64,000 nucleotides of DNA from Astropecten irregularis (Eukaryota; Echinodermata; Asteroidea; Paxillosida; Astropectinidae). The notes beneath the pieces were generated by a model. It ran no database searches. It worked only from the letters and a program-made list of their open reading frames with translations, and was not told the origin of the DNA. Positions 3,378 to 62,620 of the stretch are shown here, one piece after another. The stretch is from contig OZ020250.1 of NCBI GenBank assembly GCA_963971285.1, positions 9,160,499-9,224,498 of the forward strand, given 5' to 3'. Position numbers and translations under genes: made by a program. The first letter of the stretch is position 1. Every line of letters begins with the position of its first letter.

Positions 3378-3407
3378 TATAATTCTCTCAAACTTAGATC
3401 TCGCGCC

Positions 3408-10487
<7,080 letters not shown>

Positions 10488-12179: not shown

Positions 12180-15100
12180 TCAAATGACATTCTTCATCAT
12201 GAGATCCAGTGTAGCCTTGGTTCGAAGCTTCTTGGGCATCTTGAACTGGTTATAACTGGCCGTAGAGGTCGCTATGATGAACTCTTTCAATCTCTGGAAG
12301 GAGCCTGGAGCAACGAGAAACACCCGTGCCTCGCAGATGGTGCCAGCCTGGCGGTAGTTGTCGTAGATCTCGTGCTGTTTTCGCAGGGATTTGTCGAACT
12401 GTGTGTACGATAGATACATTCAAAGGTAAACATTTCAAACTTCAGTTTTTCCCAAAGAAATGCAGATTAATGGGCAAAAATATCTGGAAAGATACAGTAG
12501 GCCTAAATAACAGTCATCTATGACATTCCCAGTGCCATACGGGATACCTTTTGAGAAACAAGTGACAACGCCCACGGTATTTTTAAGAATCTTTTCACAG
12601 GCCTGATTTTCCGAAGATCAAATTGTTTGGTCATTGGTTTTACTCTTTTCTGGATAAATACAGCATTTCAGGCAAATAACTGTCTGTTTCTACCATCACC
12701 ATCTTTATACCCTGTTATATGTGAAGATTTCTGTTTCGGAATGCTACCAAAGTAGGATAGTACCTTAAAAAGACATGATATACAAATAAACAATGCATTT
12801 AAAAGTACAGTACAGGACCAGTAATACCCAAACAGAAATGTTCACAGATTTACGTCGTAAATCTGTGAACTTTCAGGGTATGAAGATGGTGCTGGTAGAA
12901 ACATATACCAAAATATTTCTGCCTGAAATGGTGTATTCATCCAGAAATTATTCAAACAAAGACCGAAAACAGTTTTGATCTCAGGGTAAGATCAATACCA
13001 TTATTTATGTTTTATAAGAAAAAGTTAGTAAGATTCTCGCTATTTTCTCGTGATTCAGATGTCCGATTGAGCTCAAATGTTCACATTATTATTTCATGTA
13101 CATGTTTGACCAGACAACGGTGTGAGTGCTAATTTGTGACCTTTACCAATCATGTATTATACCTTTAAGGAAAAGCCTCAAAATTACGCAAACGTTTTGG
13201 AACACTCGACTGGTCTTGAAATAATGACGCACTTAATGAATTTTGCAAAATCATACCATAGATTTCTGCTCCGCTGACAAAAGCACATCTGACTTTGACT
13301 CCAATTCTACAAAGAGTAGGTAGAACATGTCATATTCAGCAGCTGAAACGAAGAAAAATACATTTCGTATAAAACACTTTTGAAAGTTGGATCAACCAAT
13401 GATTTAATTGTTGAATAACCGATTACTTTCGTGATCTCTTACCATCACTATCTCCATACATGAGTGGACTTTCTGAACACGTCCATTCGACCAGTGATGC
13501 ATTCTTCCAGCCCGTCAAGCTCTCGCGCACGGCGGTGCTCACCACCAGCTTGTCTATCTTCTCGCTGCGTAAATTCAAAATCTCACCAGTCCTGCATCAT
13601 GTCAATGGTAGATTGAATTCATAGAGGTAAGACTGGGATGAAGACTGCACAGCCAAAGATTTGCCGTGGCGTAGCTAAGGCCACATAAAAAATTACTTGT
13701 TTAGCGTCCCCGCCCGACCTGTATTATTTTTTTATTTTGTATTTGTCTCAAAAAAAAAAAATATTGGGGGAAACAATTATTTCTTGTATGTAAAAGCAGT
13801 GTGCGCTAATATCTACCGTAATTTTCGGACTAAACATCATGAAGGCCACCTGGAGTAGAAGCCGCAGCATGCGAAAAATGTACAAATTTAAGCGGAAGGG
13901 ACATTTGATAATCAACGTTCCGGAAATTTGTACCGATGTGGCGGACTGAAGGAATATCAGCCGAGCGCATGACTAGAACTACCGTAACCCGACTTGAGTC
14001 AAGTCTACATATACTTTCTCTAGTCTACTGAAATTTCCAATGGTCAGATATCTAGCTTGAAAGCTTCTATGGTCTTCAGTATCTTCCTAACATGTTTTCT
14101 GACCATGAATACCATGTATCTTTTCTTTCACAGGCATGTTGCCATTCTATCCTTAAAATAAAAAATAAAAATAAAAACCTCCCTCCCTACCTAGAAAATT
14201 TGGAAGAGGTGGACGCTAAACAATTTTTTTTTTTATGTGGCCTAAGCTAAGCCAGTATATGAGACTGTATAAGTAGTCACTCAGTGCTTCATAACGAACT
14301 TAAAGGATCAGTATACAGGATAGGTAACATACCCAAACCGAAATGTTCAAAGATTTACGTATAACTTTCATGGTATGAAGATGGTGCTGGTAGAAACCGT
14401 TCAAAATGTTTCCGCATGAAATGGTGTATTTATCCAGAAAGAGTAAAACCAAACACCAAAAACATTTTTGATCTTGGCAAGATCAAAACTCCTTCTTAAG
14501 TTTATGTTTCATAAGAAAAATTGAGTTGGGTTCAGTCGCTATTTTCTCTTGACTCAGATAGATGTCCGACTGAGCTCAAATGTTCACATGTGTTATTTCA
14601 TGTAAATGTTGGATTAGACAAAGTGTGAATGCCGTGACCGTTTACCATTCACGTAGTATACCTTCAAATCTGTTGTGATCCGAAAAACTCAACAGAGATT
14701 CAATCGGACGGGAAACCATAAACTTAAGATTTCGATTGACATGTACCCAATACTCTACATAAACTACTATGTAATCATGTAGGCCTACATTTCGTGTTTC
14801 CAAGAACGAATTCATAAACTGCATGTGCAGAACGGGCGATTCCAAATAGTGCGCCACCAAGAGTTTGAAATGCGCAGGCCAATCACAATGGACGGAATTT
14901 CGATGAACCAACTGCGCATCTCGCTGGAAAGGGTCGACAGATTTCGCGCATTGTGATTGGCCAACACTATTTTGGAATCGCCAGTATTCCTTCGCTATTT
15001 GAACACAGTCATCTATAAATTTCATTGAAACACTCTTTCGCTGTACTGAAGTGGCATATCTAAAAGTCAAACCTGTATTTCACTTGGATTACGGGGCAGT

Positions 15101-18100
15101 TCTGGTGGAAGTCTACAACCTCGACGACGTCACCCACACGATACCGGTAAAAACCCGACGGGGCAGTCATTACTATCTCGTAGCGTTTGCCAACCTCGAC
15201 CTCATCGATGAGCAGCGTGTCTGGGTTGTCCTCGCCACTGAAGATCGGGGAAGAAAAAAATGCATGACCTTACCCTTATGAAAATTTACCCCTGTCGACA
15301 CAGTGTGTTCTCTGTGTGATCACACAGTCACACTGTGATGACTCTATGAACACACAGAGAACACACAGTGACCAATGCACACTGTGAATGTCCACTATGT
15401 GAACACACAGTGGAATCACTATGAACTTTCCACAGTGTCCGTTCACACAGAGATCACCCTGTGAACACACAGTGGAATTACTGTGAATTTCCACAGTGTC
15501 TGTTCACACTTACATCACTGTGTGAACACACAGTGAAATTATTGTGAATTTCCACAGTGTCTTTTCACACTTAGATCACTGTGTGAACACACAGTGAAAT
15601 TACTGTGAATTTCCACAGTGTCTTTTCACATATGATATCACTATGTGAACACACAGTGGAATTACTGTGAATTTCCACAGTGTCTGTTCACACTTAGATC
15701 ACTGTGTTAACACACAGTGGATTTACTGTGAATTTCCACAGTGTCTGTTCACACTTACATCACTGTGTGAACACACAGTGAAATTACTGTGATTTTTCAC
15801 AGTGTCTTTTCACACATAGATCACTGTGTGAACACACAGTGAAATTACTGTGAATTTCCACAGTGTCTGTTCACACTTAGCTGTGTGAACACACAGTGGA
15901 TTTACTGTGAATTTCCACAGTGTCTGTTCACACTTAGATCACTATGTGAACACACAGTGAAATTACTGTGATTTTTCACAGTGTCTTTTCACACATAGAT
16001 CACTGTGTGAACACACAGTGAAATTACTGTGAATTTCCACAGTGTCTGTTCACACTTAGCTGTGTGAACACACAGTGAAATTACTGTGATTTTCCACAGT
16101 GTCTGTTCACACATAGATAACTGTGTGAACACACAGTGAAATTTCAACAGTGTCTATTCTCAAATAGATCACAATTTCCACAGTGTCTGTTCACACATAT
16201 TTCGCTGTGTGAACACACAGTGAAGTTACTGTGATTTTCCACAGTGTCTGTCAGACCATGGGGTCAGACACTGTGGAAAATCACAGCTACGTATACACAG
16301 TTAACACGAGTGTCAACTGATACTCTATGAGCATACTGTGATATTACTGTGAATCGTCCAGCTTCAGGGATAATCGTCCAGCTTTAGTGATAATTATACC
16401 ACATGAAGAACAATGTTACCACATTGTGTTCACACAATTTTAAATGTAGAGTTTTACTACCAGCCTCCAAGCCCTCCATAATCGTATCCCATAATAATCA
16501 TAGAGAATAGGAATTTTAAACCATTGCGTGCTAAATATCAAAAAGTTGTGCTAGTCTAATTTGCTAGTCTTTAGTTTTCCAAGTAATTTTCGGAATGTGA
16601 CGTTTTGTACAAACAACGTTCTGTTAATATTAATTGTACTCGTCAGAGTCTGTTTTTATTGTCGTATAATTGAGAATTGAAATTATTAATTTGCAGTTTA
16701 AAAGTAATTTTAATGGAAAAGTCATGTTTCAAATAGGAGAAAACTAGGATCATCGCGACGCTAAAGGACTTGTCAAGTTTACTAGCCAGTGTAAACAAAG
16801 TATACACAGGATGTACGCATTACGCAACGATCAACCGTTATTATAATTAGTACAGTTGAATGTACAGTTACTCATTGTTACGGTGTCGGTCCAGCTTGCT
16901 CAGGAATTCTTCATGATTTGGTGAAAACCGTGAGTATTTACACATTTCTTTTGTATATTCCCGCATTCTTATAAGTCCCCTGTATTTATATTCATAGGTT
17001 GAGCCCAATATTAGGTGGGGAAAAGGGATTATTTACGTCAGACTTCGATCGCCTGGTCCTACTAAATTTACCACGATGCACAACATGGCCATTATGACGT
17101 TGCATATGCAGTCCTGTGAATATTCTCCACTGTTCTTGGTCAGAATTGAGTGATGCACACCTATACTATAGACCTATCTGATGTTTTATTCGTACCCCCT
17201 ACTTCATTATCAAGCCCATTTAAAAAAGAATGATTCTCAGTCATGATACTTGATTATTTCTATTTCTTCCTCCAATCTCCATGATTAGTGGTAGGCCTAA
17301 TCATGCAAAACGGATGAACTTATTCACGTTCTAGCATGTCATAAACTCGAGGGTCCCGAATTAATTGTAGTATAACCGACTATATTTAAATTATAGTTGA
17401 CTAATATAAAGTTCCAAAATTGTGTGGGTCTATACGCCCTAAAATTATGGGTCTTTCCGACTTCTGTACATTGATTTAGAACAGATTCCATGTAATTGAT
17501 GTATTTGATATGCAGTGTACACTTCAGGTTTGAGAAAATACGTCCATATAAATTATTGCAGTGTACAGCAAGATGTACATGTATTCTGAGAAGATGGCTA
17601 TGAGGCAGTGATTAAGTCAGTGTGTTCTTCTTGTACTTTACTCCTTTATGGTAAAGCTTTGCTGGTGTTCTTCTTGGAGACTAATTGGGAGAGAGAAACT
17701 TTGGTCACCTTTGTCAAGCGGACTGCAGAGTGCAGTTACAGATGGCTACAGACTGTGTGTTTCATTGTAGCCCTATAGGACATCTGGTGGAAAATGTGCT
17801 TCGTCTTGCCTTTGAAGATTGTAAGTTTTGATGTTGAGGACATTCTTGGTATTTTCTAAAACAAATTCTACATAATGTAATGCAGGTCCAACCAGAGTTT
17901 ATTGGCCTCAAGGTTGACAACGTAAGGCTGTACATTGATTTAAAATGACAGACGAATATCTTAAAATCTCAGTGTTTGTGACTGAATTTATAATAATATC
18001 ATATAAGCAACTGGACTATCCTTACCTATAGGCTGTTTACAGCGCAACCTTTATAAACAGCCACACACATGCAACTGTGTATGCTGAAACATGATCCCAC

Positions 18101-21100
18101 AGAGGAGCACATTACATGCTTGGCAGGGTCGATGTAACATGTAACAAGTGTCCTTGACATGGTGGTAATACTAGTAGTAGTAACATATGCAGGGGCTAGT
18201 TTGACCAGGGATCTCTACCCTTAATACATGCATGGAGCTATAAAACAGATACATGTACACCAGTGCAATATTTTGGTGTTATCTTCTGGCTCCCTCTCTA
18301 TGGACTGTGGTCGACAATTGGCAAACCTTAGTGTTTGTGACTTCGTTCTAGTTTTCTACATAATAGTGTCAATCGTGGTTCATTGGAATGTAGCATTTAA
18401 CTGTGGACCTATGTCAAGAGGTGTAGGTCTATGGATTTGATGACTGCATGATTTAGGTATATTTGTTTTCACCCCAAGACCAAATTTCAAACAATGAGTA
18501 AATAGGCTATAATTATGATGTGCATTAACGGATGTTCTGTTGTTTGTTTGATGCATTTTGCAGAAGCTGTAAAGAAGACTTGGAATGAGTGGCTCGCCGG
18601 TGTAGGAGTTAGTGGTGGTAGTTGAACCAACTGGAGAATGATGGCTAGACAGAAAGTGCCTATTTACAGAGCAGGCATCTTGATTTTTCAGGCAAAGCTA
18701 AAGCTGCTATTAACTTCAATTTATATTCATTTACGCGTACAATTTGTACTGTAAACAAATGTAAACAAAGTTATATATTGTGAGGTTTAAATTAAATCTC
18801 ACTTTCCAGCTTTCATATAATTACAAAATAATAAGGTACATCAATTACAGGTTGGCTGTGCTTATTTTCTTGAATAGGCACGTGACTTAAGCCTGAAGGT
18901 ATTTTTCAGCTTTCAATCGTAATGTGAATATACTCTTTGCATTGTCATAAAAATGTCTTTCTAATTGAGGATCCGAATGTAAAAAAAACCAATATTTTTA
19001 AAAGGTAAAAAAAAAGTAAAAAAAGAACAACTCAAAAAATAAAAATGTCTAATGAAACTAGTATTTTGCAAATGGAGAACTTTGCCCCTCACAAAATGAC
19101 TTTTATTCTTAGTTGAATTTTGTCAACTGTTGCTTAGTTTCGGTTGAATAAAGTATGTGCATTTTTCTATGATGACAATATATGCAATTGTTTGTGACTT
19201 CATATCATTGATTTACGTTTCCTTTTGTTTCCATCCCTAATTCACAGGCCGGACTGGTAGTATGACATCGGGACAACTGATTATTACTTAGCCGAGGGTC
19301 TGTCCACATTTGACGAAAACACAGCCCAGATGTGGCTATTATTACGTGGCAACAGACTGGAAATTAATTTGAAAGCAAAGGGTCAGTCAGTGTAGATAGT
19401 AACTCACGTCGCACTAAACCTACATATTAGTCCAACATCGAAACAATCAGTTGTCCCGATGTCAGCCAATATGGGGAAACTGCAAAATCTGTATGGTCAC
19501 ACTGTGGGGACACTGTGATCTCTGTATGGTCACACTGTGGGGACAGTATGATCTCTGTATGGTCACACTGTGGGGACACTGTGATATCTGTATGGTCACA
19601 CTGTGGGGACACTGTGATCTCTGTTTGGTCACACTGTGGGGACAGTATGATCTCTGTATGGTCACACTGTGGGGACACTGTGATATATGTATGGTCACAC
19701 TGTGGGGACACTGTGATATCTGTATGGTCACACTGTGGGGACAGTGTGATATCTGTATGGTCACACTGTGGGGACACTGTGATATCTGTATGGTCATACT
19801 ATGGGGACACTGTGATATCTGTATGGTCACACTGTGGGGACACTGTGATCTCTGTATGGTCACACTGTGGAGACACTGTGATTTCTGTATGGTCACACTG
19901 TGGGGACGCTGTGTTCTCTGTATGGTCACACTGTGGGGACAGTGTGATATCTGTATGGTCACACTGTGGGGACAATATGATCTCTGTATGGTCACACTGT
20001 GGGAACACTGTGATCTCTGTATGGTCACACTGTGGAGACTATATGATCTCTGTATGGTCACACTGTGATCTCTGTATGGTCACACTGTGGGGACACTGTG
20101 ATCTTTGTATGGTCACACTGTGATCACCACAGAGTTCACATAGTGGCCATACTGTTCCCCCACTATGTGAACACACTGTGTACTCTGTGTGTGACACTAT
20201 GAATTTGGAACAAAACCATACAGTCGTCACAGTGTGAACACACTGTGTTCATATACTGAACACAGTGTACCCACAGTGTGACCATACAGACCATCACTGT
20301 GGGGACACTATGATCTCTGTATGGTCACACTGTGGGGACACCGTGATCTCTGTATGGTCACACTGTGGGGACACTGTGATCACTGCAGAGTGACACTGTG
20401 GTGACACTATGAACTTTATGGTCACACTATGATCTCTGTGTGGCCACACTATGGGGACAGTGTGATCTTTGTATGGCCATACTATGGGGACACTGTGATC
20501 TCTGTATGGTCACACTGAGGGGACAGTGTGTGTTCAGTATATGAACACAGTGTGTTCACACTGTGACGACTGTATGGTTTTGTTCCAAATTCATAGTGTC
20601 ACACACAGAGAACACAGTGTGTTCACATAGTGGGAGGACACTGTGGCCACTATGTGACCTCTGTGTGTTCACACAGAGGTTTCACACTGTGGTGACTAGG
20701 GGGAATTTTCATAAGGGTAGTTTTTAGTTGCTACAGATTACAGAAGCTGGCTTACGGAGGAGCCCTTGGGTTATACATGATTACTGTGCATGCCTTATTA
20801 TGGGGACATAAGCGATATATACGACTAAGTCATATCCACGACTGATTTTTGTACCTGCAATATTCAGGAATGAACTCCACTAGGTTTTCGTTGGGCAGAA
20901 TGACATACTGCTGTGGCCTGCCGTCATTCCATAGATTCGACCCAAGCACCCCCTCAGTTGTGCCGTAGGTAATGCTGAAATGTCTGATGCCTATAATCAA
21001 AAGAAAACACATGTCTAAAAGAGCACCAGTTACTATCAATGTAGCCTCATTACTCTCTAAATACAAAATAGTGAAAAGCCTCTCTTTGAAGAGCCATAAT

Positions 21101-23013
21101 CATGAAGGACAACAGACTCTTTTTCGAGCTGTCTTCCACTCTTTTAGAGTGAAATTTTGATAGTTTTGAGTGATTTGTCACTCTGGCCCAGAGTGAAAAC
21201 CACTTCAAAAGAGTGAAATATCCACCACTCTTTTTCAAGAGCCGTATGAAGAACAACTCGATTTTGAACGAGTGGTATTTTTCACTCTTTTGCATTTAGA
21301 GGGTTGCCAGTGGCGACTAAAAAATGGTCTAGTACGAAAAATGAAAGCATTTTTGTCTTACAACCAGTTTTCCTTTGGTTTCATCAAAACAAAATTCATA
21401 TTCCAAACTGGCGAATATGATTTTGTAAGCATCGCGGCTTACACGGGGTAAGGGGATTTTGTCCATCAGATACATGTATATGAAGGTATAAACTCAAGTA
21501 GAACATTGCCTTCAAACCATACTCTGTTTTCACTTGAGATTATAACAATTAACGTCAACGGATTCATGATAACAAATACCTTTAGCGTATCTTGCGTTGA
21601 GCTTTTCCATGTATCCAGAAATGTCAATGGTTAAGAGGCAATCAATATGCGGCCAGATTCTGCCTACGATTCCCACAAAGCCACGTTCCATCTCCTCCTT
21701 CAGCTCTTTGGCTCTGGTCGGGTTTGGCTTTAAGGCTGCATCCAGAGAGCGCCGTATCTCATCGTCTATGTTCAGTCTGGGATTGACCCGCCCCTCAGTG
21801 AGATCCTCCAGCAGCATGTCCTGTTCGTCTTCCAGCATGGCGAACGCTCGGTACACCTGGGACGCAAAAGGCGCCATGAAAGTGGACAGGTTTTTGTCCC
21901 TTAAAGCAAAGAGAAGATGGACGTAGGTAGCTTCGAAATCTGTGGAAATCTTGAAGACGCTGGATGGTGTATCCTGAACAACCTCCATCAAGACTATTGG
22001 AGGGGCCATTGAATTGGGGTCTTCTTCTTTGGTAGTTGGTAAGAATAGCATTGGCGCAATGGGCAATTTCGATTGTGTAAACTTTAAAGCGGGTTTGCAG
22101 TACAACATGCAGTATTTCTGCACTGGACTTGACTTGGCAAGCCCTACATGTCGGGAAACAAAAGAAATCAACATTTTGATGCTCGAAGAGAATACAAATG
22201 GAATGAGCTTCCCCTTGCCCGTTGTGCCGGAGGATATCCCGAACCTTTCTACTCCACCAGCCACGCAGACATTCTTCTCCCCATCAGCAAGTCTCTTGAA
22301 GTATTCCTCGTAGTGATCGTACTTGGTTAGCGGATGCTTCTTGCGGTATTCCTCCAACGAGTCAATGCCTTTCAAGTAACGTCTACCGTACTCTGTGTCA
22401 GCATCCCGGGCAATTAGCTTCAGCAGAAACGCCTTCTGCTCCTTCCGCGGATGCTTCCACACCTTCGCCATCTTCCACAAGAAATACGGAGCGTAGAAGC
22501 TGACTCCCTGGAAGATGACGTACTGCATCAGAAGCGTCTTCAAGGTGTGAGACTCGGAACATCGCAGCGTTGAGATGTGAAAAGCTATCAGGGTGGATAA
22601 TGAGCCAAAAGTCATCGGGATACCTGTAGAGTGATGATATAAAGAAAGTAAAATAACTCAGTTATGTGTCTGGTATACATACTAAGTTGTATTATGCCGT
22701 ATAGATCCAGAATGACGGTTCTGCACTTGGCAGCTGCAACACCGTAAAACCCATACGCATACGGATCATTACTATGGAACTTAATTGACAGTACGTCATG
22801 TGTATTTAAAAGACACACGTATAGTTATAGGTTCATTGCTCTTATGCTACAATGGATTATATTATAACACGGCCTGGAAATGAAGCATATACCTGCAATG
22901 GCTTTCCACACCACAGCCACATCGCTCATGATGAGAAGTTTAACCAGATATGCAGTTGCAGATGCAGATACGATACCCCACAGCAGAAAGCGTGATGTCC
23001 ATGATGCAGCCAT
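12180..23013 (-). CDS. GHDC-like: GH3 domain-containing protein, copy 1 (GHDC-like), 639 aa
   Basis: Seven exons in transcription order: 23013-22893, 22623-21580, 20990-20855, 15237-15073, 13591-13443, 13342-13257, 12398-12180; phases close and total 640 codons. An N-terminal hydrophobic segment (about residues 9-28) suggests a signal anchor. GH3/ANL adenylation motifs are complete: motif I ISSGTTGKGK (170-179), motif II YGTTEG (397-402), motif III YRYRVGDVVE (464-473). Plant and bacterial GH3 enzymes adenylate carboxylic acids and join them to amino acids; the animal role is unknown. Length exceeds human GHDC (about 530 aa). Motif II here is the canonical type, unlike copies 2 and 3, and exon 3 is the most divergent exon of the trio. 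Intron 3 is enlarged to 5.6 kb by a satellite-rich transposon that starts 35 bp from exon 4. The gene is convergent with the esterase gene. Confidence 0.92.
12430..13172. repeat. Neighbouring TTAA MITEs (B then A) in intron 6 of GH3 copy 1
   Basis: Family B occupies about 12430-12772 (ends CTACCAAAGTAGGATAGTACC) and family A 12795-13172 (AAAAGTACAGTACAGGACC...ACCAATCATGTATTATACCTTTAA). Confidence 0.7.
13676..14249. mobile_element. Nonautonomous DNA transposon, about 575 bp
   Basis: Inverted ends AAGGCCACATAAAAAATTACTTGTTTAGCGTCC (left, shortened here to its first 20 bases AAGGCCACATAAAAAATTAC) and GGACGCTAAACAATTTTT...TTATGTGGCCTAAGC. No coding frame. In intron 4 of GH3 copy 1. Confidence 0.6.
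14302..14667 (+). repeat. TTAA MITE, family A
   Basis: Starts TTAAAGGATCAGTATACAGG and ends TACCATTCACGTAGTATACC. Full length, about 365 bp, in intron 4 of GH3 copy 1. Confidence 0.75.
14837..14981. repeat. Small palindromic MITE
   Basis: Left CGATTCCAAATAGTGCGCC and CCAATCACAATG are mirrored by CATTGTGATTGGCCAACACT and TTTTGGAATCG. Related to the longer element at 27778-28476. Confidence 0.7.
15300..16330. repeat. 61-bp tandem satellite
   Basis: About 14 units of the form CACTGTGTGAACACACAGTG-AATTACTGTGAATTTCCACAGTG-TCTGTTCACACTTAGAT, with variation. Each unit is itself palindromic around CACACAGTG/CACTGTGTG. Confidence 0.9.
19263..19464. repeat. Perfect 20-bp inverted repeat bracketing 162 bp
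   Basis: TGACATCGGGACAACTGATT at 19263-19282 is mirrored exactly at 19445-19464. It lies just outside the 33-bp array, inside the 5.4-kb element. Confidence 0.85.
19486..20125. repeat. 33-bp tandem satellite
   Basis: About 19 units of GGTCACACTGTGGGGACACT-GTGATCTCTGTAT. Because 33 is a multiple of three, both strands stay open for about 200 codons without being genes. Confidence 0.95.
20125..20690. repeat. Long palindrome with 33-bp-unit core
   Basis: About 120 bp at 20150-20270 (with GACACTATGAATTTGGAACA, GTCGTCACAGTGTG) recurs inverted at about 20522-20640. The loop holds a few 33-bp-type units. Confidence 0.85.
21055..21302. repeat. MITE with CTCTAAAT...GTGAAAA ends
   Basis: Ends CTCTAAATACAAAATAGTGA and TCACTCTTTTGCATTTAGAG are inverted repeats, and the interior is rich in GAGTGAAA words. 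In intron 2 of GH3 copy 1. Confidence 0.7.
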
Positions 23014-23409
23014 CTTGCTGAATTTTACGTTCAGTAACTTTTAACTCTGAATGCCGGATGGGCCACTACAGGCTTGTAACAATAGAGGAAAATTCTATTA
23101 TAAAAGTATTCATCCGAGTGAATGAATCGTGGTGCATACATATAGGCATGCGTGAAGGCCACAACCACTACGGGTCAGGTCAAAGAGGGCTATTAAAGGA
23201 TCTCGTTTACTGCATAGGCCTATCTATAACACTTGGCGCTAGCTCGGCCCGCCAGTACTGTGCCACACGCATTATGCGTGTTCAACCAACCAAGTTCAAC
23301 CAATTGCCAACCGACTATAGGGACCTTACGAAGCTCTAGAGGTGCCATCCAACTTGTTGAGATCCCGAGATGAAACTATCATGGGTTTACGACACAAGAA
23401 TTACAAGTA

Positions 23410-24225
23410 TTATCCTGAGATCATTTATCACGAGATGACTCCCTAACTCAAGATGACGACATCCTGAGATAATTTATCACGGGATGACGACATCCTAAAC
23501 TCAAGATGTCGACATCCTGACATAATTTACCACGGGATGACGACTTCCTAAAATCAAGATGTCTACATCCTGAGATAATTTATCACGAGATGACTTCCTA
23601 AACTCAAGATGACGACATCCTGAGATAATTTATCATGGGATGACGACATCCTAAAATCAAGAAGTCGACATCCTGAGATAATTTATCACGGGATGACGAC
23701 ATCCTAAAATCAAGATGACGACATCCTGTGATAATTATCACGGGATGACGACTTCCTAAACTCAAGATGTCGACATCCTGAGATAATTTACCACGGGATG
23801 ACGACTTCCTAAAATCAAGATGTCTACATCCGGAGATAATTTATCACGGGATGATGACATCCTAAACTCAAGATGTCGACATCCTGCGATAATTTACCAC
23901 GGGATGACGACTTCCTAAACTCAAGATGACGACATCCTGAGATAATTTATCACGTGATGATGACATCCTAAACTCAAGATGTCGACATCCTGAGATAATT
24001 TATCACGGGATGACGACTTCCTAAAATCAAGAAGTCGATATCCTGAGATAATTTATCACGCAATGACTACTCCTAAACTCAAGATGTTGACATCCTGAGA
24101 TAAGATAATTTATGACGGGATGACGACATCCTAAACCCAAGATGTCGACATCCTGAGATAATTTATCACAGAATGCGATGACGACTTCCTAAATCAAAAT
24201 GTCGATATCTTGAGATAATTAATCA
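23410..24225. repeat. 53-bp minisatellite upstream of GH3 copy 1
   Basis: About 15 units of CCTGAGATAATTTATCACGG-GATGACGACATCCTAAACTC-AAGATGTCGACAT, with indels. It starts about 400 bp upstream of the copy 1 ATG. Confidence 0.9.
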
Positions 24226-24354
24226 GAATTCCCTTGAATACGCCCATACTGTAATTGGTCTGGTGCCGTGGCACGCCATTTATTGTTAGCTCTGGCTGAC
24301 GTTCAGGTTCATGACTACCGGAGCTCCCCGCTACCAATCTATCAAACTGCAGCT

Positions 24355-24592: not shown

Positions 24593-24599
24593 TTGATGT

Positions 24600-25900: not shown

Positions 25901-25948
25901 CTTTAACGCTTTTATGAAAACTGAAAACATCTTACGCGAGTATCAGAC

Positions 25949-31900: not shown

Positions 31901-34900
31901 CTTTTCGCGACAGTTGACCGCCAGTTTCATAACATTTTGTATACATTTCACTTGATTTCTAATTATCGTAAACTAAAGCATCAACGATTATTCAGAAAAA
32001 AATCATGCCACTATTAAAACACACAAAGAAAATGTGCGCAGATTTGGGATGTTCGATGTATCTTTAATGAATGTGCAAACATCGCCTAACAAAACTGCGC
32101 AGATATTTGTGAATTTGTGACGGTAAGATCTGTACCAAACATCACGAATATGTGGGAAGATATTTCTGATGTTCGATGTTCCTCCTGCGCCCCCTTTCTT
32201 TGCCGTCTTGCGCATGATATGCATAGTTAATATCACGCTGTGAATAATGTAATGCACGCTCCAAGTGTCATGTGTCATGGCGACCACCGCGTCTCGCACT
32301 GGATACGAAACCACACTATCGCTAGCCTGTGTGAGGCAGGAAGAGTGAAACTCCTTGAGCCAATTCTGTCATTTTTGGCCACAGTGTAGCAAGAATTCTG
32401 GTGGAATGTTGTATGGCCCTTGGGCTTTCCCGATCTTCAGTTGTCCGATGGCAGTGGAAGGCTCTCCAGATCTGAAGGGTGTTGACATGTGGCCATCTGC
32501 TCCTGGGGCTTGCCAGATGTTTGTGGTTTCCTGCTTGACGGAACGGGTGTGGCCTTTTGCAGTATCCGTGAATCGTCCATTCGCAAGAAGATGTTCAGCA
32601 CCTGAGTTGGCTGATACAGGGCATTGTGTTGGTCTGGAGCTTCTGCCTGTGAGGCGGTTGAAGGTCTTCCAGGCCATTCTGCTGGAGTGGGTGAAGTCGA
32701 TGCCTTGGACAGTTTCCTCCCATCGCTCTCTGCGCTTTTTGTCAAGGCACTCCGTCAGGTCTGATGCTTTTGAGGTTGCCTCTTCGCCGGGTTCAGCATG
32801 CAGGTATATTGTAGTGTGCGTCACACTCCTCATCCCAGTTGGGTATCTACCGACGGCGGAAGCCGCGAGGGATGACCTTCTTTGCTGCCGTGATGGTGAG
32901 TTTGCAGTAGGCAAGGTCGGAGTTGGAGGAGGATGGAGAGGGAAGGTTGTCTATTCCTAAGTCCACCAGGTTTGTGAACTGGTTCCATCTAGCCTTGCGG
33001 AAGTTCCACCTCTTCACGGGTTTGGTAAGTATTGGTTCAATTGGGTTGTCTGGAGTGATCAGTGATGGCCTGGGCTGGGACCTGGGAAAGGGTTGCAGAA
33101 TAGTGCGGTGAGGTGAGGGGACATTGAGTTTTGCAAATGCAAGGTCGGGGTTTGAGCTGGTGTTCCCTCTTCCGGAGTGGAAGTTGTCTGGTTGCTTGGG
33201 GTCAAACAAGAGTTGCACACCGGACACCGAGGCCCAATCATCGAGTGCTGCTTCGTCTGGGTTTGTTGAGCTGTATCCCCAGGTAGTGCTTCGGCAGTTG
33301 AAGTCGCCAGCGTAGATGCAAGGCGAGTCAAAATAAATGCAGGGATAGTGTCTGCGAGGAGCCGGGGTTGTAGGGGCTTGCATATACATTGATGGTGGAC
33401 ACGCCTTCGATTTTGGTAGCTGTCCTTTCCACTGCGGAGTTTTGAGGGGAGGTAGCAATCGCTGTCCACCTTGCAGAGCTCCTGACGAAGGTGGCAATCC
33501 CATGGATGTCACTCTCCGTAGAGGCGGCCAATGTGAAACCGGGAATTTTGAGTCGGGAGCTTTCACTCGTGGGTTTCTTGAAGGAGGATGGCGGTAGGAT
33601 TATTGTCGACCTCCTCGTGGTGAGCCCTGGTATTAAACTGATTCGTCAGGCGAACGACAACAACCAGAGACAGCAGCAACAGCTACAGCTATATAGCTAC
33701 AGCCTAAACTTCCAACTCACTGCATCACGCATCAGTCCCTGTGAGTGATCCTGCCAGGCGGAGTATCTTCTCGATAGAACCTTCTGGCAGGTCTCGGCCG
33801 GTAGGGCGTCTACATGACACGTGGTTGCGTCAGGTGGATCGTTATTTTGCTGAGATGGGGGATGGGTCGCGTGGCTGCCGGGGGATTGCCGGAGTACAGC
33901 TCGATAGATGCGGCAACGCGCTACCGCGCGTGCTCCCACTTATTGATTGATTGAATCATAGGGCCTTTTCGAAACGGAGGCTTAGGCTCAGGCTCAGTCT
34001 CCAGCTCTGACATCCACATGCTGAAAATATAGGTTGTGGTTTTTCATTGAAGCTGAAACTCTATTATCCTTTTCAAACCGGAGAATCTACTTTAGAACCG
34101 CAGCCAAAAGTCTCTATTTTGATGCCCGTTATTTCAGAATGGATTCACGAAATGGAGCTGGAGCCTGAAACGGAGCCTGAGCCTCCGTTTCGAAAACGCC
34201 CTAGTAGACCATGTCAAGAGAATTTTAAAAGTTTCAGTTGAAGTTGAACGTGCTTCACATCAAATGAATAACATTGCATATCATTCTTATCAAACATTAT
34301 TAAGAAAACCAAACAACCAAGCAAAACAAATAGACTGGCTACAGTAATATTCTTCATACTTCATACCTTTAGCGTATCTTGCGTTGAGCTTTTTCATGTA
34401 TCCAGAAATGTCAATGGTTAAGAGGCAATCAATATGCTGCCAGATTCTGCCTATGATTCCCACAAAGCCACGTTCCATCTCCTCCTTCAGCTCTTGGGCT
34501 CTGGTCGGGTTTGGCTTTAAGGCTGCATCCAGAGAGCGCCGTATCTCATCGTCTATGTTCAGTCTGGGATTGACCCGCCCCTCAGTGAGATCCTCCAGCA
34601 GCATGTCCTGTTCGTCTTCCAGCATGACGAACGCTCGGTACACCTGGGACGCAAAAGGCGCCACGAAAGTAGAAAGGTTTCTGTCCGTCAAAGCAAAGAG
34701 AAGGTGGACATAGGTAGCTTCGAAGTCTGTGGAAATCTGGAAGGCACTAAAAGGTGTATTCAGGGAGATATGCACGAGCAGGGCTGACAGGCCGCCACTT
34801 CCATTAGGGTCTTCTTCTCTGTTAGTTGCTATAAAGGTAGCTGCACAAATAGGCAATCTTGATTGTGTGAACTTCAGAGTGGGTTTGCAGTACAACATGC

Positions 34901-35806
34901 AAAATTTTTGCACCGGACTTGACTTGCCAAGGCCTACATGTCGGTAAACAAGAAACATCAACATTTTGATGCTCGAAGAGAATACATATGGAATAAGCTT
35001 TCCCTTGCCCGTTGTGCCGGAGGATATCCCGAACCTTTCTACTCCACCAGCCACGCAGACATTCTTCTCCCCATCAGCAAGTCTCTTGAAGTATTCCTCG
35101 TAGTGATCGTACTTGGTTAGCGGATGCTTCTTGCGGTATTCCTTCACCGAGTCAATGCCTTTCAAGTAACGTCTGCCGTACTCTGTGTCAGCATCCCGGG
35201 CAATTAGCTTCAGCAGAAACGCCTCCTGCTCCTTCCGCGGCTGCTTCCACACCTTCGCCATCTTCGACAAGAAATACGGAGCGTAGAAGCTGACTCCCTG
35301 GAAGATGACGTACTGCATCAAAAGCGTCTTCAAGGTGTGAGACTCGGAACATCGAAGGGTTGAGATGTGAAAAGCTATCAGGGTGGATAATGAGCCAACA
35401 ATCACCAGGATACCTGCAGAGTGATGATAATGTATAAAGAAAGGAAAATAACTGTCTGGTAGGCCTATACCGTAGTTATTTAACGCCGTGTAGATCCCAA
35501 ATGGCATTGTATTGCACTTGGCAGCTGCAACTCCGTCAAAACCCATACGCAAAATGATTTGGAACTTGGCAGAACTTCCTGTGCCATAAAAGACACACGG
35601 CCCTTAGTGTTATATAGGTTCATTGGTGCAAATGCTAGAATGGATTATAAATTATTGTAACACGACGTAGAAACTAAGCATATACCTGCAATGGCTTTCC
35701 ACACCACAGCCACATCGCTCATGATGAGAACTTTAACCAGATATGCAGTTGCAGATGCAGATACGATACCCCACAGCCGAAAGCGTGATGTCCACGATGC
35801 AACCAT
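25949..35806 (-). CDS. GHDC-like: GH3 domain-containing protein, copy 2 (GHDC-like), 639 aa
   Basis: Same architecture as copy 1. Exons: 35806-35686, 35413-34367, 29892-29757, 29295-29131, 27534-27386, 26548-26466, 26167-25949; 640 codons. One extra codon in exon 2 is balanced by one fewer in exon 6. It starts MVASWTSRF with a hydrophobic N-terminus. Motif I ISSGTTGKGK and motif III YRYRVGDVVE are intact. Motif II reads YSCTEA, with Ala where copies 1 and 3 have Gly; the key Glu is kept. Intron 2 (29893-34366) contains nested LINEs and a short inverted-repeat element. A TTTATT (AATAAA on the minus strand) at 25804-25809 lies about 140 bp past the stop and is a reasonable poly(A) signal. Its 5' flank resembles that of copy 1, so the duplication included the promoter. 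Confidence 0.92.
26823..27212 (-). repeat. TTAA MITE, family A, in intron 5 of GH3 copy 2
   Basis: Left end CTAAAGGTATAATACATGATTGG, right end TTACCAATCCTGTACTGAATCTTTAA; near full length. Confidence 0.75.
27778..28476. mobile_element. Nonautonomous DNA transposon, about 700 bp
   Basis: Ends are inverted repeats of about 45 bp with mismatches: CGATTCCAAATAGTGCGCCA then CCAAGAGTTT on the left, AACTCTTGGTGGCGCACTGT then TTGGAATCC on the right. Inner CTGCAGCCGC and GCGGCTGCAG also mirror. In intron 4 of GH3 copy 2. Confidence 0.7.
28605..28875 (-). repeat. TTAA MITE, family B, internally shortened
   Basis: TTAAAGGTATTATCATACTTTTG at the left, CCAAATATGATATTACCTTTAA at the right; about 100 bp shorter than full copies. 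Confidence 0.7.
30230..30315 (+). mobile_element. Fragment of a host-to-insertion LINE (LINE 2), RT thumb region
   Basis: The plus strand encodes RVLPVLLYGCET followed by TLTGE, a signature just after the reverse-transcriptase domain in many LINEs. The fragment stops where the minus-strand LINE begins. Its partner is at 33741-33950. Confidence 0.6.
30316..33740 (-). mobile_element. Non-LTR retrotransposon (LINE 1), Jockey/CR1-like, broken
   Basis: Minus-strand order: endonuclease (AILLQETH near 33580; AGDFNCRSTTWG, NPDLAF), linker, reverse transcriptase (VDPTAAYDTVWHQGL near 31540; GYADDLALLYSD near 31280), thumb (TPTYLGVKLDRQLTYKQHLE near 31060), and a C-terminal CPCG...HH zinc-knuckle-like stretch near 30340. 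The frame shifts repeatedly, and about 450 bp at 31860-32330 interrupts it before the RT core, so it is dead. It sits in intron 2 of GH3 copy 2, same strand. Clade assignment is tentative. Confidence 0.85.
31860..32330. mobile_element. Insertion within LINE 1
   Basis: LINE-like coding similarity stops at about 32330 and resumes at about 31860. The intervening DNA is AT-rich and unlike the GC-rich LINE. No clear inverted ends were seen, so its type is unknown. Confidence 0.5.
33741..33958 (+). mobile_element. C-terminal end of LINE 2
   Basis: The plus strand encodes RSRPVGRLHDTWLRQVDRYF and, in a shifted frame, terms like AATRYRACSHLLID, the typical C-terminus of LINE ORF2 proteins. It ends in ATTGATTGATTGAA, a LINE-style short-repeat tail. 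It is separated from 30230-30315 by LINE 1. Confidence 0.6.
33960..34205. repeat. Short inverted-repeat element, GGGCGTTTTCGAAACGGAGG family
   Basis: Starts GGGCCTTTTCGAAACGGAGG and ends CTCCGTTTCGAAAACGCCC; abuts the LINE 2 tail. Confidence 0.85.
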
Positions 35807-36228
35807 CTTGCTCAACTTTTCGTTTCGTAAAATAACTCTGCAGGCGATTTCACGAAAGTAGTAAAATCGGCTGCTGAATGCCCAATTGGCTCAGACAAGG
35901 CTATGGAAGAAAACAAAATTCCATTATGAAAGTATTCACCCGGATGAAAGAGTCGTGGTGTATACATAGGCACGATGGAGGCCGCAGTGACTATGGGTCA
36001 ATATTATGAATACATCTCGTTTTCTGCACATATGCTTTAAAGTTCAGCCAACCGGATATAGGGGCCTTGACATGAACGAGGCATTCTGTCAGCTGTAGTG
36101 AAATACTGTCGTTTGCTATATCCATTGTCACTACTGGACTATGTTTATAGTGCAATAGCTGGAAAGTACAACCATTTTATATTAGACCAAGGACTTTACA
36201 GTATAGGGCCTATACAACGTTACCGACA
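35807..36228. promoter_or_regulatory. Shared divergent promoter region of GH3 copies 2 and 3
   Basis: The two start codons are 422 bp apart on opposite strands, so both promoters must lie here or overlap the first exons. On the plus strand a TATA-like TTTTATATTA near 36174-36183 precedes the copy 3 ATG by about 50 bp. No clear TATA box is visible for copy 2. The half next to copy 2 resembles the DNA upstream of copy 1 (23014-23210). Confidence 0.55.
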
Positions 36229-39200
36229 ATGGCTGCATCGTGGACAACGCGGTTTCTACTGTGGGGGATTGTATCTGCGTGTGTTACTGCGTATGTGCTT
36301 CAAGTTTGCTTGATGGATGATGTTGGTGTGATATGGAAAGTCCTAGCAGGTATGAGTCCTTTTCCCTTCATGTAATCTATGGCATTGGTTTTATGGTATC
36401 TGTGGCATTGACAAAAGACGTGTAAGAAGAGAATTGTACTTAAAAGTTAGCAAAAAGGAATGGGAAGGCTTGTTTTTATATTCATGTAGATTATTCCATG
36501 ATTATTCTCGGCCCGTGTTGACCTGTGTGAACTGTATTCAGTGGGTCCGTCGACAAGTAGTTTTTAGCGTGGTCTTGCGCCATTATTGTTATGGCAAGCT
36601 GGGACTTACGGTGACCCAGAAGTGCCATATGAGTTGTGTTTGACAGTGACTAGAACCTTATGAAAGACCGGACCCCATACGTATTAATAAACGGTGGGCT
36701 TCCAGGATGTATTATTCTATGTATTTATTTTTTCATTTAATTATTAATGTACTTCATGATGAAACTATAGGTATACGCCGACTGTTCGTGGCCCGCGAAC
36801 TGCGTGCCAACTCCTCGGGGAATTACCTTAATAGTGATCATCATTGAACGGTTCATTTTCTTTCTCAAAAATGTCTCCTCTAGAAAATTGGTTCACCATG
36901 ACTGTGTGTCCGCTTGCACCACTTTAGTGCGGTGACGGGGCACGTGCTCATTGTTTGGGTTTAGGGAATGAGTAACGGGCTTGTTGGAATCATTTATAGG
37001 CCGTATCGTAGGTATATTGTGTAATTCTTAGTTTTTGTTGAAAAGTCTCTCAAAATAGAGTATCCACTTCGAAAGAGTAGCCAAAAGCCCAGGCCAAAAT
37101 ATTATACTGTCTTCTTAGTATTTAATGGTACAAAGATGGTCCGTCCTAGAAAAGTAGCCGGGCTACTTCATTTAGATAACTCACAATCAGTGTTAGATAA
37201 CTCACAATCAGTGTTCTGACCTCCAATATGATACCTCCAAATATCCAAAAAGGAAGACATTATTCATAACGTAGTCATGAAGAGATGAAAGTTCAGGCTC
37301 CACTTATCTTTTCTGCCGTGTTGAAGTACTCGTACTCGTACTCGAGTACAACTCGAGTACAGACAAATACTCGGTCCGTACTCGATTAAAAGTACTCCAA
37401 AATAAAATGTACTTGACCCGTATACTCGAAAAAAAAAATCCAAGATAAATGTACTTGGCCCGTACTCGATTCCATGTACTCCAATTTTTGGAGTACTTGA
37501 CCATTTAGTGCAAATTTAATTTTCGTTACAATTTAACGGTAGTGTTGCCGATTTCCGATAAATTATACAATGGGAGTATGGAGATCATCGGGAGTTTAGT
37601 ATCAAATGGAGTAAGCAGCACAGTGTCATTTGCAAGGTTTGAAAAACATTTATTTTTTGAGAAGAGTGGCACAACATGATCAACATCCAATTATAAACAT
37701 CTTTGTGAAACAAAATGTAATTTTTGGCACTGTGATGTTTGTTTACGTACTCGGACGCGGACTTGGACTCGGCCCTGTACTCGACCATGAATGTACTCGG
37801 ACTCGATACTTAGGACTTGGACTCGACAGCAATGTACTCGGACTCGGCCTAGTACTCAAGTACTCCGAGTACTCTGTACTCTGATCTGAGGACTCTACTC
37901 CAACATTGCTTTTCTGTTTGCAGGTATCCTGGTGATTGTAGGCTCGCTATCCACCCTGATAGCTTTCCACATCTCAACGCTGCGATGTTCCGAGTCTCAC
38001 ACCTTGAAGACGCTTCTGATGCAGTACGTCATCTTCCAGGGAGTCAGCTTCTACGCTCCGTATTTCTTGTCGAAGATGGCGAAGGTGTGGAAGCATCCGC
38101 GGAAGGAGCAGGAGGCGTTTCTGCTGAAGCTAATTGCCCGGGATGCTGACACAGAGTACGGCAGACGTTACTTGAAAGGCATTGACTCGGTGAAGGAATA
38201 CCGCAAGAAGCATCCGCTAACCAAGTACGATCACTACGAGGAATACTTCAAGAGACTTGCTGATGGGGAGAAGAATGTCTGCGTTGCTGGTGGAGTAGAA
38301 AGGTTCGGGATATCCTCCGGCACAACGGGCAAGGGAAAGCTTATTCCATTCGTCAGATCTAAACGCATTATTTTCTCAATATATTTGGGATACAAAGAAG
38401 TAGGCTTGGTCAAGTCAAGTCCGGTGCAAAAGTACTGCATGCTGTACTGCAAGCCAACGGTGAAGTTCACAAAATCAAGACTGCCTATTGCTCCAGTTAA
38501 CTTTATAGCAACAAACAGAGAAGAAAACCCTAACAAAAGGGGCGCCCTGTCAGGCCTTGTGCGTATTATCCAGACTTCACCCTTTAGCGCCTTCCAGATT
38601 TCCACAGATTTCGAAGCTACCTACGTCCACCTTCTCTTTGCTTTAAGGGACAGAAACCTTTCCACTTTCATGGCGCCTTTTGCGTCCCAGGTGTACCGAG
38701 CGTTCGCCATGCTGGAAGACGAACAGGACATGCTGCTGGAGGATCTCACTGAGGGGCGGGTCAATCCCAGACTGAACATAGACGATGAGATACGGCGCTC
38801 TCTGGATGCAGCCTTGAAGCCAAACCCGACCAGAGCCAAAGAGCTGAAGGAGGAGATGGAACGTGGCTTTGTGGGAATCGTAGGCAGAATCTGGCCGCAT
38901 ATTGATTGCCTCTTAACCATTGACATTTCTGGATACATGAAAAAGCTCAACGCAAGATACGGTAAAGGTATGAAGTATGAAGAATATTAATGTAGCCAGT
39001 CTATTTGTTTTGCATCTTGTATTGGTTGTTATTTTTCTTAATAGGCCTTTGCTTGAATGTCATCCATTATGTGAAGCACGGTTTAATTACTTCAACTTAA
39101 CTTCACAAGTAACTTTCTTGGTCTGCTGCGATGAACAAGATGAAAACTGTGTAACTTGAGAAAATAATCGCCAGGGGTAGATTTCACCAAACTCATCGTA

Positions 39201-41701
39201 ACTTAATATTAATCGTTGGACTTATAGTGCATTGCAGTTCTACGTATGATACGATGGGACATCCTTCGTAACTCGAGTTACGATCAATCGTAGGGCTTTC
39301 TGAAATCGTTCCCTGGAGAGATGAGCCGTTTGTTACTACACTTGTAATGTTTCGGCTTTTCACAATGAGTGTAATTAATCCTGCATTGACTCTGTGCTTT
39401 GTGTTGTTTGTATCACTTGATTAACAGATCTGAAGCATTTTCAACCAATCTATAGCTGTACGGAGGGTGTTGTTGGAATGAACCTTTGGAATGATGGTAG
39501 TCCAGGGCGGTATGTCATTCTTCCCAACGAGGTCCTAGTGGAGTTCATTCCCGAGGATTACAGGTATTTGAGTCAGTGGTAAACACGGTCATGTCGAGAG
39601 AAAAAGTGAACGATAGGGAAGTCCTATTATAGATCAAACTGTGAGATCACTGGTGTCTGCATCTTACGCAACGAATGTTAATGTGTGCCCTTAAAAAGGC
39701 AGAAGTGGGGCACACCAAAACGTAATCGTGGAAGGTTTAATTGAAGGTACAAGAGTGCGAGAGGTTGGCAGAGGAACGCAAAAGAACTGCTGACAAGCAG
39801 AGGGTGACCCATGGTGGCAAACCTTCGCTTGGAACTTTGCTCAAGTTGAAGACGGCACATGGTGGTGTTAATGATGATGACGGTCACTGAGATGACTGAC
39901 ATTTTTTATAGGCCTATCCATTTCTCTCACACGTATGTTTCCACAATGTTGTCATTGCCCTGCCATCAGCGAGCTTCTGTAGCAACTTAAACAAAATCTG
40001 CCAGACGTTTTGTGTCTAACCATCCATTTCTCTTCCTCTTCATTCAGTGGCGAGGAAAACCCAGACACGCTGCTCATCGATGAGGTCGAGGTTGGCAAAC
40101 GCTACGAGATAGTAATGACTGCCCCGTCGGGATTTTACCGGTATCGTGTGGGTGACGTCGTCGAGGTTGTCGACTTCCACCAGAAGTGTCCCGTGATCCA
40201 AATGAAATACAGGTTTGACTGTCCAATTCAGTGTAATTGTGCCAACAATTTAGCACATGTATATTGTATCATATTAAATGTTTTAATTTAATGTTTTAAT
40301 TTTCCACATTATACAGGACTGGCGAGCTTTTGAATTTACGCAGTGAAAAGATAGACAAGCTTGTTGTGGACAAAGCTGTACAGGAGAGCTTGACGGCTTG
40401 GCTGGATGCAAGACTAGTCGATTGGACATGCGCAGAGAGTACAATCATGTATGAAGATAGCGACGGTAAGCGAATTTGGTAACTTGATATGAAATCAGTC
40501 TTGACCTTAATACTCGGCACAATGGTGTAATTTAGCATTTATCTGTGAAATCAAACCGCCTATCTTCCATTGGAAAACCATCCTAAGAATAATTACAGTA
40601 CTTCGATGTTCAATCAAGTAAATCTTAAAAAAAAACCTAGTCATACTGTTGTCTGTGAGAATGGCAACTCCCATTTTTATTTTTATTTTCGAAATTGCTG
40701 GAGCATGAACTAGAAGGCGCATGACAGCACCTGGCCAATAATTACCAGAGGGAGTCGAAACACTTGACAACAGTCTAGTTTTACTCTGTGAATCATTCCC
40801 TTTCATTTCAGCTGCTGAATATGACATGTTCTACCTACTCTTTGTTGAATTGGAGTCAGAGTCAGATGTGCTTTTGTCAGCGGAGCAGAAATCTATGGTA
40901 GGATTTTGCGTATTCATCAGTCATTAAAGGAATGGTACAGAATTGGTAAGACAAAATACACTTCAAGATCACAGATTCACATAAAACTTACACAGTATAA
41001 TGGCGATGATAGGAGAAAACATCCCATGTTTTTGTCTGAAATGCCATATTGTTGAGAAATAAATGAAACTATTTTTCCGATTGGAATAAATCGCTTCGAA
41101 GCGTTTTATTATGAACGCATAATATCGTTGAAATGTGTAAACGGGTTTTCACAATTTTCTCGTGACCCCGATGGCTGATTGACCTCAAACTTCTACAGGT
41201 TTGTCAGTTAAGGCATATGATGGATTACATAATGTGCTTTCACTGTGTGTCAGCAACGGTTTTGTTGCAAAAACCAGTTCTGTACCATCCCTTTAAGTGC
41301 GTCATTTGGCCAGTCAAAGTTCCAAAACGTCGGATCATCTTGAGGCTTTTCTTTAAAGACGAATTGTAGGTCTAGGCTAACATGTTTAATCAATAATGTA
41401 TCATTTCACTTTAACCTTAATAAATACTTCACTTTGCTCGGTCCTTGATTTTTACCTTTGAATGTATCTATCGCTTACCCAGTTCGACAAATCCCTGCGC
41501 AAACAGCACGAGATCTACGACAACTACCGCCAGGCTGGCACCATCTGCGAGGCACGGGTGTTTCTCGTTGCTCCAGGCTCCTTCCAGAGATTGAAAGAGT
41601 TCATCATAGCGACCTCTACGGCCAGTTATAACCAGTTCAAGATGCCCAAGAAGCTTCGAACCAAGGCTACACTGGATCTCATGATGAAGAACGTCATTTA
41701 A
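36229..41701 (+). CDS. GHDC-like: GH3 domain-containing protein, copy 3 (GHDC-like), 639 aa
   Basis: Exons: 36229-36349, 37924-38967, 39428-39563, 40048-40212, 40317-40465, 40812-40897, 41483-41701; every exon has the same length as in copy 1 and the total is 640 codons. Residues 1-40 start MAASWTTRF and differ clearly from copies 1 and 2, while the beginning and end of exon 2 are nearly identical to them. Motif I ISSGTTGKGK, motif II YSCTEG and motif III YRYRVGDVVE are intact. Residues about 183-265 (DNA 38350-38590) are the most different part relative to copies 1 and 2. Introns 3-6 are recognisable inverted copies of the copy 2 introns. Intron 1 carries a TACTCG-rich element ending about 12 bp before exon 2, and intron 6 a 370-bp TTAA-flanked element. 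Probably membrane-anchored; substrate unknown. Confidence 0.93.
37322..37912. repeat. TACTCG-rich inverted-repeat element next to exon 2 of GH3 copy 3
   Basis: Both ends are built from GTACTCG/CGAGTAC words (AGTACTCGTACTCGTACTCG on the left; CTCGGACTCGG...GAGTACTCTGTACTC on the right) with AT-rich DNA between. It is absent from the same position in copies 1 and 2, whose first introns are under 300 bp. Confidence 0.6.
39172..39315. repeat. MITE, CAGGGGTCGATTTCACC family
   Basis: CAGGGGTAGATTTCACCAAA at the left and GAAATCGTTCCCTG at the right. A relative lies at 44912-45038. In intron 2 of GH3 copy 3. Confidence 0.7.
40924..41296. repeat. TTAA-flanked MITE, family D, with paralogous empty sites
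   Basis: Between two TTAA copies the element begins AGGAATGGTACAGAATTGG and ends CCAGTTCTGTACCATCCCT. The matching intron in GH3 copies 1 and 2 has a single TTAA at this point followed by GTGCGTCAT, so the 4-bp duplication is directly visible. An inner TCGCTTCGAAGCG palindrome is present. Confidence 0.9.

Positions 41702-62589: not shown

Positions 62590-62620
<31 letters not shown>

Follow-up and report, generated by a model that had tools for sequence, protein, structure and literature searches.

Three GH3 genes of Astropecten irregularis form a gene-conversion mosaic with a putative acid pocket as its most divergent part

Three neighbouring GH3 genes, here named A, B and C, lie in a 64,000-nt stretch of the sea star Astropecten irregularis (contig OZ020250.1; hereafter the window), and their comparison points to a mosaic produced by gene conversion, with the greatest divergence in the putative acid-binding pocket. 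This pattern was missed by the original prediction made from the same DNA, and it is the best clue to function found here. On balance, we favour the view that the three proteins are acyl-acid amido synthetases attached to a membrane, and that their acid pockets differ while gene conversion maintains a common chassis; the chemistry, the anchoring and the substrates are deduced from the sequences. As natural variants whose differences are concentrated in the putative acid pocket, the three genes offer a direct test of the animal GH3 reaction.

Results

The three genes were modelled by spliced protein-to-DNA alignment in a genome of 475.7 Mb and 168 contigs. Each has seven exons, introns that are all GT-AG, entry phases of 0,1,1,2,2,1,0 and 639 open codons followed immediately by a stop, which agrees with the earlier observation of three intact genes and places their outer ends at exactly the same positions, 12180 and 41701. 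The seven-exon structure had also been called identical; this holds for exon number and phases in all three genes but not for every length, since exons of 121/1044/136/165/149/86/216 nt (without the stop) are shared by A and C only, whereas exon 2 of B has 1047 and exon 6 has 83. Gene B still comes to 639 codons because one codon was gained in exon 2 and one lost in exon 6. The shared exon structure is by itself uninformative on function, because it is expected of duplicates and of the GH3 family; the same seven exons and phases occur in five of the 12 other GH3 gene models of the genome, and the shared exons of the remaining models are mostly alike.

The mosaic emerges from codon analyses (synonymous divergence, dS, by segment; four-fold degenerate sites; selection) that included seven of the 15 gene models, namely A, B, C, c14b_1, c8_1, c19a_1 and c19a_3. 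Between A and C, dS is 0.57 in exon 1 and then changes abruptly along exon 2: 0.073 at codons 48-183, 2.01 at 184-203, 1.41 at 204-224, 0.85 at 225-268 and 0.036 at 269-388, followed by 1.08 in exon 3, 0.11 in exon 4, 0.62 in exon 5, 0.11 in exon 6 and 0.042 in exon 7, the high values being rough because of short segments and saturation. We refer to the 85-codon segment of exon 2 at aligned codons 184-268 as the island. In 60-nt windows of exon 2, most flank windows hold 0-3 differences, while the island reaches 28 (A-B), 25 (A-C) and 24 (B-C). For every pair, the share of four-fold sites that differ is higher in the island than in the flanks (A-B 6/19 against 7/109, p 0.004; A-C 10/16 against 6/113, p 2e-7; B-C 6/22 against 5/111, p 0.003; threshold 0.05, uncorrected), and the identical runs of each of the three pairs exceed those of every one of 5000 shuffles. 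The synonymous sites of the flanks are not frozen, as A and c8_1 differ there by dS of 1.28 and 0.82; the island gives 0.84 and 1.26 for the same pair where it is measurable, codons 184-203 being saturated. An excess of four-fold differences in the island was seen in one of nine comparisons of A, B and C with the c8 and c19a genes and in none of three comparisons of c14b_1 with them. Within the 400 bases examined on either side of an exon, the alignment of A with C ends 3 to ~35 bases outside the exons, except for short pieces beside exons 5 and 6; because the introns barely align past the exons, homogenisation stops where homology stops, as it would under gene conversion. Outside aligned codons 1-47, the island and exon 3 together hold 49/83 of the codons with replacements in A-B, 56/80 in A-C and 38/66 in B-C.

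Gene B combines A-like with C-like sequence by recombination, and its pocket stretch joins an A-like alpha5 to C-like later segments. Counting sites that unite B with A (AB) or with C (BC), B is A-like in exon 1 (28 AB, 2 BC) and at codons 184-203 (25, 2), has no lean at codons 204-224 (5, 5) and is C-like at codons 225-268 (9, 33), in exon 3 (7, 32) and in exon 5 (6, 24). The best single break lies after aligned codon 219, within the island; no shuffle out of 1000 reached it, the grid used for the shuffles being coarser than that for the real data. The introns match this main switch, with A-B similarity 5' of exon 2 and B-C similarity around exons 3 and 4. Since exon 4 is reversed (6 AB, 0 BC), the 5' flank of exon 2 shows 5 AB and 11 BC sites, and A and C agree against B in the 3' flank of exon 2 and in exons 6 and 7 (10, 12 and 6 such sites), more than one recombination event must be assumed. 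As a separate observation, the dS of exon 5 of A is 0.25 with c14b_1, which lies 5.2 Mb away, against 0.51 with B and 0.62 with C, and long-range conversion between A and c14b_1 is possible.

The island and exon 3 contain the counterparts of residues that have been described for the acyl site of a plant GH3 enzyme. A plant GH3 review names seven such residues in OsGH3.8, R130, L137, V174, L175, M337, A339 and Y344 (PMC10747189); six are placed consistently by the three MAFFT modes, and R130 was dropped from the count. At L137, V174, L175, M337, A339 and Y344, genes A/B/C have L/L/S, M/A/V, L/T/N, T/D/I, G/S/S and V/V/V, so none of the three genes has the auxin-type pocket of OsGH3.8 over the six mappable columns. 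Five of the six vary among A, B and C, against 128 of 638 columns overall (p 0.0015), and three of the six have a different residue in each gene, a state found in 12 of 638 columns overall (p 1e-4). These p-values are optimistic because the columns are clustered; in a rotation control that counts the true place, 12 of 641 rotations do as well. Among c8_1, c19a_1 and c19a_3, variation is found in four of the six columns (p 0.008), with 11 of 641 rotations doing as well; no column differs in all three.

As the limits of the island were set on the alignment of A, B and C, the result for these genes is post hoc, and the other gene groups constitute the test. Eleven pairs were compared (pairs inside one gene group are not independent), leaving out c19b_4, whose exon 2 model is broken, c14b_1 and c20_1. 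Codons with replacements were in excess in the island over the exon 2 flanks in eight of the 11 (A/B/C 3/3, c8/c19a 3/3, c19b 2/3; p <0.05, uncorrected), and no such excess was found in the old c27 pair or in the near-identical c19a_1 and c19a_2, which are one residue apart. Synonymous changes were in excess in six of the 11 pairs (A/B/C 3, c8/c19a 1, c19b 2, c27 0, c19a_1/c19a_2 0).

Purifying selection acts on the genes and is weaker in the island. A one-ratio model for the seven paralogues gives an omega of 0.19 for the flanks of exon 2, 0.45 for the island and 0.25 for exon 3, and a value of 1 is rejected for all of them (p 1.4e-47, 1.2e-7 and 7e-11, respectively).

With respect to the enzyme itself, Pfam GH3 (PF03321) matches A, B and C with 198-208.5 bits at a cut-off of 23.6, which excludes a chance match, and GH3_M (PF23571; 79-83 bits) and GH3_C (PF23572; 50-54 bits) also pass their curated cut-offs. 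When gene C was compared with the PDB (E <=0.001), all ten matched sequences were plant GH3 enzymes, the best with an E-value of 6.8e-48, aligned within residues 97-639. All three genes carry motif I SSGTTGKGK, a motif II TE core, motif III YRYRVGDVV and the lysines of SEK and NQFK. Across the 15 gene models the alignment retains motif I GT, motif II TE, motif III GD and both lysines, the TE being SE in two plant rows, and the final Lys of motif I is missing from c20_1. The presence of motifs I, II and III, which had been reported for A, B and C, thus extends at the level of the cores to the 12 other models, and the adenylation machinery of the three genes appears complete by homology. The assignment of catalytic residues among the motifs and lysines is partly one that we presume. 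In the plant GH3 review, S341 and E342 are named for phosphate and Mg (PMC10747189). In all three proteins the first ~60 residues are hydrophobic, as previously noticed, with best 19-residue Kyte-Doolittle windows of 1.74, 2.23 and 2.19 for A, B and C, and this N-terminus may act as a membrane anchor.

The family extends beyond the three genes. A search of the genome gave 16 exon-level GH3 matches, which led to 15 gene models in seven loci: three in the window, c14b_1 on the same contig, one on C8, three and four at two places on C19, two on C27 and one on C20. The description of A, B and C as three maintained copies is correct in that they are intact and constrained, but it understated a family of which they are three members out of 15. 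No in-frame stop occurs inside any of the printed models, the 12 outside the window having been aligned up to the end of the query only and not as far as a stop codon. The locus c19b_4 may be decayed, the model of c20_1 is without a first exon, and the exon 6 region is unsure in the c19b and c27 models. In a tree of the 15 paralogues and one bacterial GH3 (the single locus given by one scan for bacterial relatives), A, B and C group with c14b_1 (97/98) and then with c8_1 and c19a (98/99), while c19b and c27 form a second group (94/93, below the star of the tree tool). The lone c20_1 joins the long bacterial branch; because two long branches meet there, the root and the placement of c20_1 are uncertain.

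The label GHDC, under which the three genes had been placed, is probably wrong for them. Of the four proteins scanned with GH3_N_vert (PF25146; cut-off 34.1 bits), A (27.2), B (22.0) and C (26.7) fall below the cut-off and c20_1 (35.8) passes; as the sole protein to do so, c20_1 is the best GHDC candidate seen.

Table 1. Features of the window, in window coordinates
Feature	Position	Strand	Basis or remark
GH3 gene A	23013-22893, 22623-21580, 20990-20855, 15237-15073, 13591-13443, 13342-13257, 12398-12180 (with stop); span 12180..23013	-	Spliced alignment; Pfam GH3/GH3_M/GH3_C
GH3 gene B	35806-35686, 35413-34367, 29892-29757, 29295-29131, 27534-27386, 26548-26466, 26167-25949 (with stop); span 25949..35806	-	Spliced alignment; Pfam; A-like/C-like recombinant
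GH3 gene C	36229-36349, 37924-38967, 39428-39563, 40048-40212, 40317-40465, 40812-40897, 41483-41701 (with stop); span 36229..41701	+	Spliced alignment; Pfam
B-C spacer, start codon to start codon	35807..36228, 422 bp	.	Gene models; divergent transcription
Divergent island, gene A	21947..22198	-	Hand-converted from alignment
Divergent island, gene B	34734..34988	-	Hand-converted from alignment; best A-like/C-like break (after aligned codon 219) inside
Divergent island, gene C	38349..38600	+	Hand-converted from alignment; aligned with plant alpha5 and OsGH3.8 pocket L137, V174, L175
Motif I SSGTTGKGK, gene C residues 171-179	38313..38339	+	Sequence; alignment to OsGH3.8; hand-derived coordinates
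Exon 3 of C	39428..39563	+	Motif II; pocket columns M337/A339/Y344 (OsGH3.8 numbering); second divergent block
Exon 4 of C	40048..40212	+	Motif III YRYRVGDVV; homogenised block
Carboxylesterase-family exons (PF00135)	3360-9099	+	Beside 3' end of gene A
Inverted repeat, 166 bases	91-256 and 4051-4216		98% complementary; flanks first carboxylesterase exon found
Endonuclease/reverse-transcriptase fragment (PF14529)	32850-33599	-	Intron 2 of B; GC-richer stretch (~30-34 kb)
Minisatellites of 61, 33 and 53 bases	15393-16143, 19488-20530, 23412-24225		First two in intron 3 of A
Array, units mostly 138-143 bases	57477-63640 and on to window end		Repeated TGATGACGTCATGATGACGTCA, i.e. dense TGACGTCA palindromes

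The other features of the window are given in Table 1. The carboxylesterase exons were considered as a linked partner that would split the conjugates, and this was rejected: tblastn of four of their open reading frame pieces gave no match in the stretches of DNA retrieved around the other GH3 loci, and the large size of the carboxylesterase family, with at least 86 exon-level matches in the genome, also counts against it. Elsewhere on the contig, 14.26-14.36 Mb holds a much larger cluster of such matches. The mitochondrial COX1 follows the echinoderm code: at positions that we take to be conserved, Asn is encoded by AAA, Ile by ATA and Ser by AGA. Contig C131, with a bacterial-looking cytochrome oxidase subunit I free of in-frame stops, may be a bacterial contaminant or symbiont, and a COX1-like stretch with seven in-frame TGA codons on the large nuclear contig C25 (9951047-9952018) is probably a nuclear copy of mitochondrial DNA.

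Discussion

The proposed model of A, B and C is that of GH3-fold adenylating enzymes that would be held at a membrane by their hydrophobic N-terminus of ~60 residues. A carboxylic acid would be activated with ATP through motifs I-III and the lysines, and the acyl group would then be passed to an amine, most likely an amino acid. Adenylation is the likely chemistry because the set of GH3 domains is complete, the nucleotide-site signatures are kept, purifying selection acts on the genes and the N-terminus is hydrophobic. Gene conversion keeps exons 4 and 7 and the greater part of exon 2 nearly identical; from the divergence of the pocket on this common chassis it follows that the copies most likely use different acids. 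The conjugation of small acids to amino acids at a membrane, as the original prediction had it, may by analogy describe the same activity.

Several results weigh against this model or limit it. Positive selection is unsupported, as model M2a fits no better than M1a in the island, the flanks or exon 3 (p 1, 1 and 0.77) and its extra class in the island lies at 1.002; 54% of the island sites fall in the omega = 1 class, which leaves room for relaxed constraint, and diversifying selection is possible. Exons 1 and 5 are divergent too, yet they lie outside the pocket by the residues used. The island also shows an excess of four-fold differences when c14b_1 is compared with each of A, B and C (p 0.004, 0.0005 and 0.048), which may reflect older conversion with c14b_1 or a faster island. 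The enrichment of pocket columns was not seen in c19b (1/6, p 0.49) or in the c27 pair (3/6, p 0.42). The alignment of alpha5 to the plant enzymes is uncertain, the genes being ~7 residues shorter here: R130 is without a counterpart in two of the three alignment modes, and the pairwise phmmer alignment places L137 two residues away from its position with MAFFT. The Y344 column is the same in the three genes. An AlphaFold2 prediction for the exon 2 product of C, made from four sequences that also included A, B and a bacterial GH3, failed, with a mean predicted local distance difference test score (pLDDT) of 35.3.

The strongest alternative accepts active amido synthetases and denies the islands any difference in specificity: constraint would be weak there, heteroduplex rejection would have barred conversion after the segment had diverged, and the copies would be redundant. 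The omega of the island, its share of sites at omega = 1, the absence of a class clearly above 1, the unhomogenised exons 1 and 5 and the island excess with c14b_1 all fit this account. However, the stretch is not simply mutable, since island and flank dS are similar in the comparison with c8_1 where measurable and a four-fold excess appears in just one of the nine comparisons with c8 and c19a; 46% of the island sites are constrained (omega 0.18), the published pocket residues are enriched, and the replacement excess recurs in eight of nine pairs from three gene groups. We consider redundancy unlikely, although it deserves to be taken seriously.

It is improbable, to a greater degree, that the acids are adenylated and then moved to an aminolipid, a polyamine, a thiol or a protein, or that the reaction ends at the adenylate. 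The hydrophobic N-terminus, which is missing from the aligned part of the plant GH3s, would suit another acceptor, and conjugation of indole-3-acetic acid with proteins is mentioned in the review (PMC10747189). Against this stand the other characterised GH3 reactions in the literature consulted, which proceed with amino acids, OlsH included, and the two lysines common with the plant rows, which are kept in all 15 models. That A, B and C are pseudo-enzymes, with a fold retained for binding or scaffolding after the loss of catalysis, is very hard to reconcile with motif I GT, the Glu of motif II, the Asp of motif III and both lysines, which are invariant in the 15 models. In its favour, no reaction for any animal GH3 protein was found in the literature searched, a weak negative with most subscription papers outside the coverage. 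An assembly artefact, through duplicated haplotypes or chimeric joins, can practically be dismissed: c19a_1 and c19a_2 could be such a pair, but the introns of A and C are mostly unalignable beside near-identical exons, where haplotypes would match throughout, and the introns of B match those of A towards the 5' end and those of C beyond it.

A bolder extension of the amido synthetase reading, which we regard as speculative and doubtful as a whole, is that the genome encodes ~15 amido synthetases similar to the plant hormone GH3s, most with an N-terminal anchor, in which conversion keeps the chassis while pocket segments are kept apart or recombined, B being a natural chimera. The enzymes would then use different acids and might make or inactivate N-acyl amino acid signals. 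If A, B and C do prove to be amido synthetases, animals would possess an equivalent of the plant mechanism that switches acid hormones on or off through conjugation with amino acids.

Among known systems, vertebrate GHDC is an animal GH3, and a stretch of ~38 residues of A, B and C matches the GH3_N_vert model at 22-27 bits, below its cut-off. The plant GH3s (OsGH3.8 7dk8, VvGH3-1 4b2g, AtGH3.5,.6,.11/JAR1,.12/PBS3 and.15) align to the A/B/C family over more than 500 residues and have the same domains, motifs I-III, motif III Asp and hinge and C-terminal lysines; unlike them, A, B and C possess the hydrophobic N-terminus, TE rather than SE in motif II, a shorter alpha5 and a pocket different from that of OsGH3.8. 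Plant GH3s join hormone acids to amino acids and OlsH joins fatty acids to ornithine (PMC12493201, PMC11253546). OlsH of Singulisphaera acidiphila is a bacterial GH3-like N-acyl-ornithine synthetase which, by its published description, has the GH3 nucleotide motifs found in A, B and C, and it is a precedent for a fatty acid as the acid (PMC12493201). Lipid-like acids are therefore a reasonable first guess for the sea star enzymes. One bacterial GH3 is 32-34% identical to exon 2. Conversion mosaics with protected specificity segments are familiar from plant resistance genes and the major histocompatibility complex; A, B and C differ from these in being enzymes and in lacking a signal of positive selection, and they resemble them in the combination of a homogenised frame with a divergent recognition segment.

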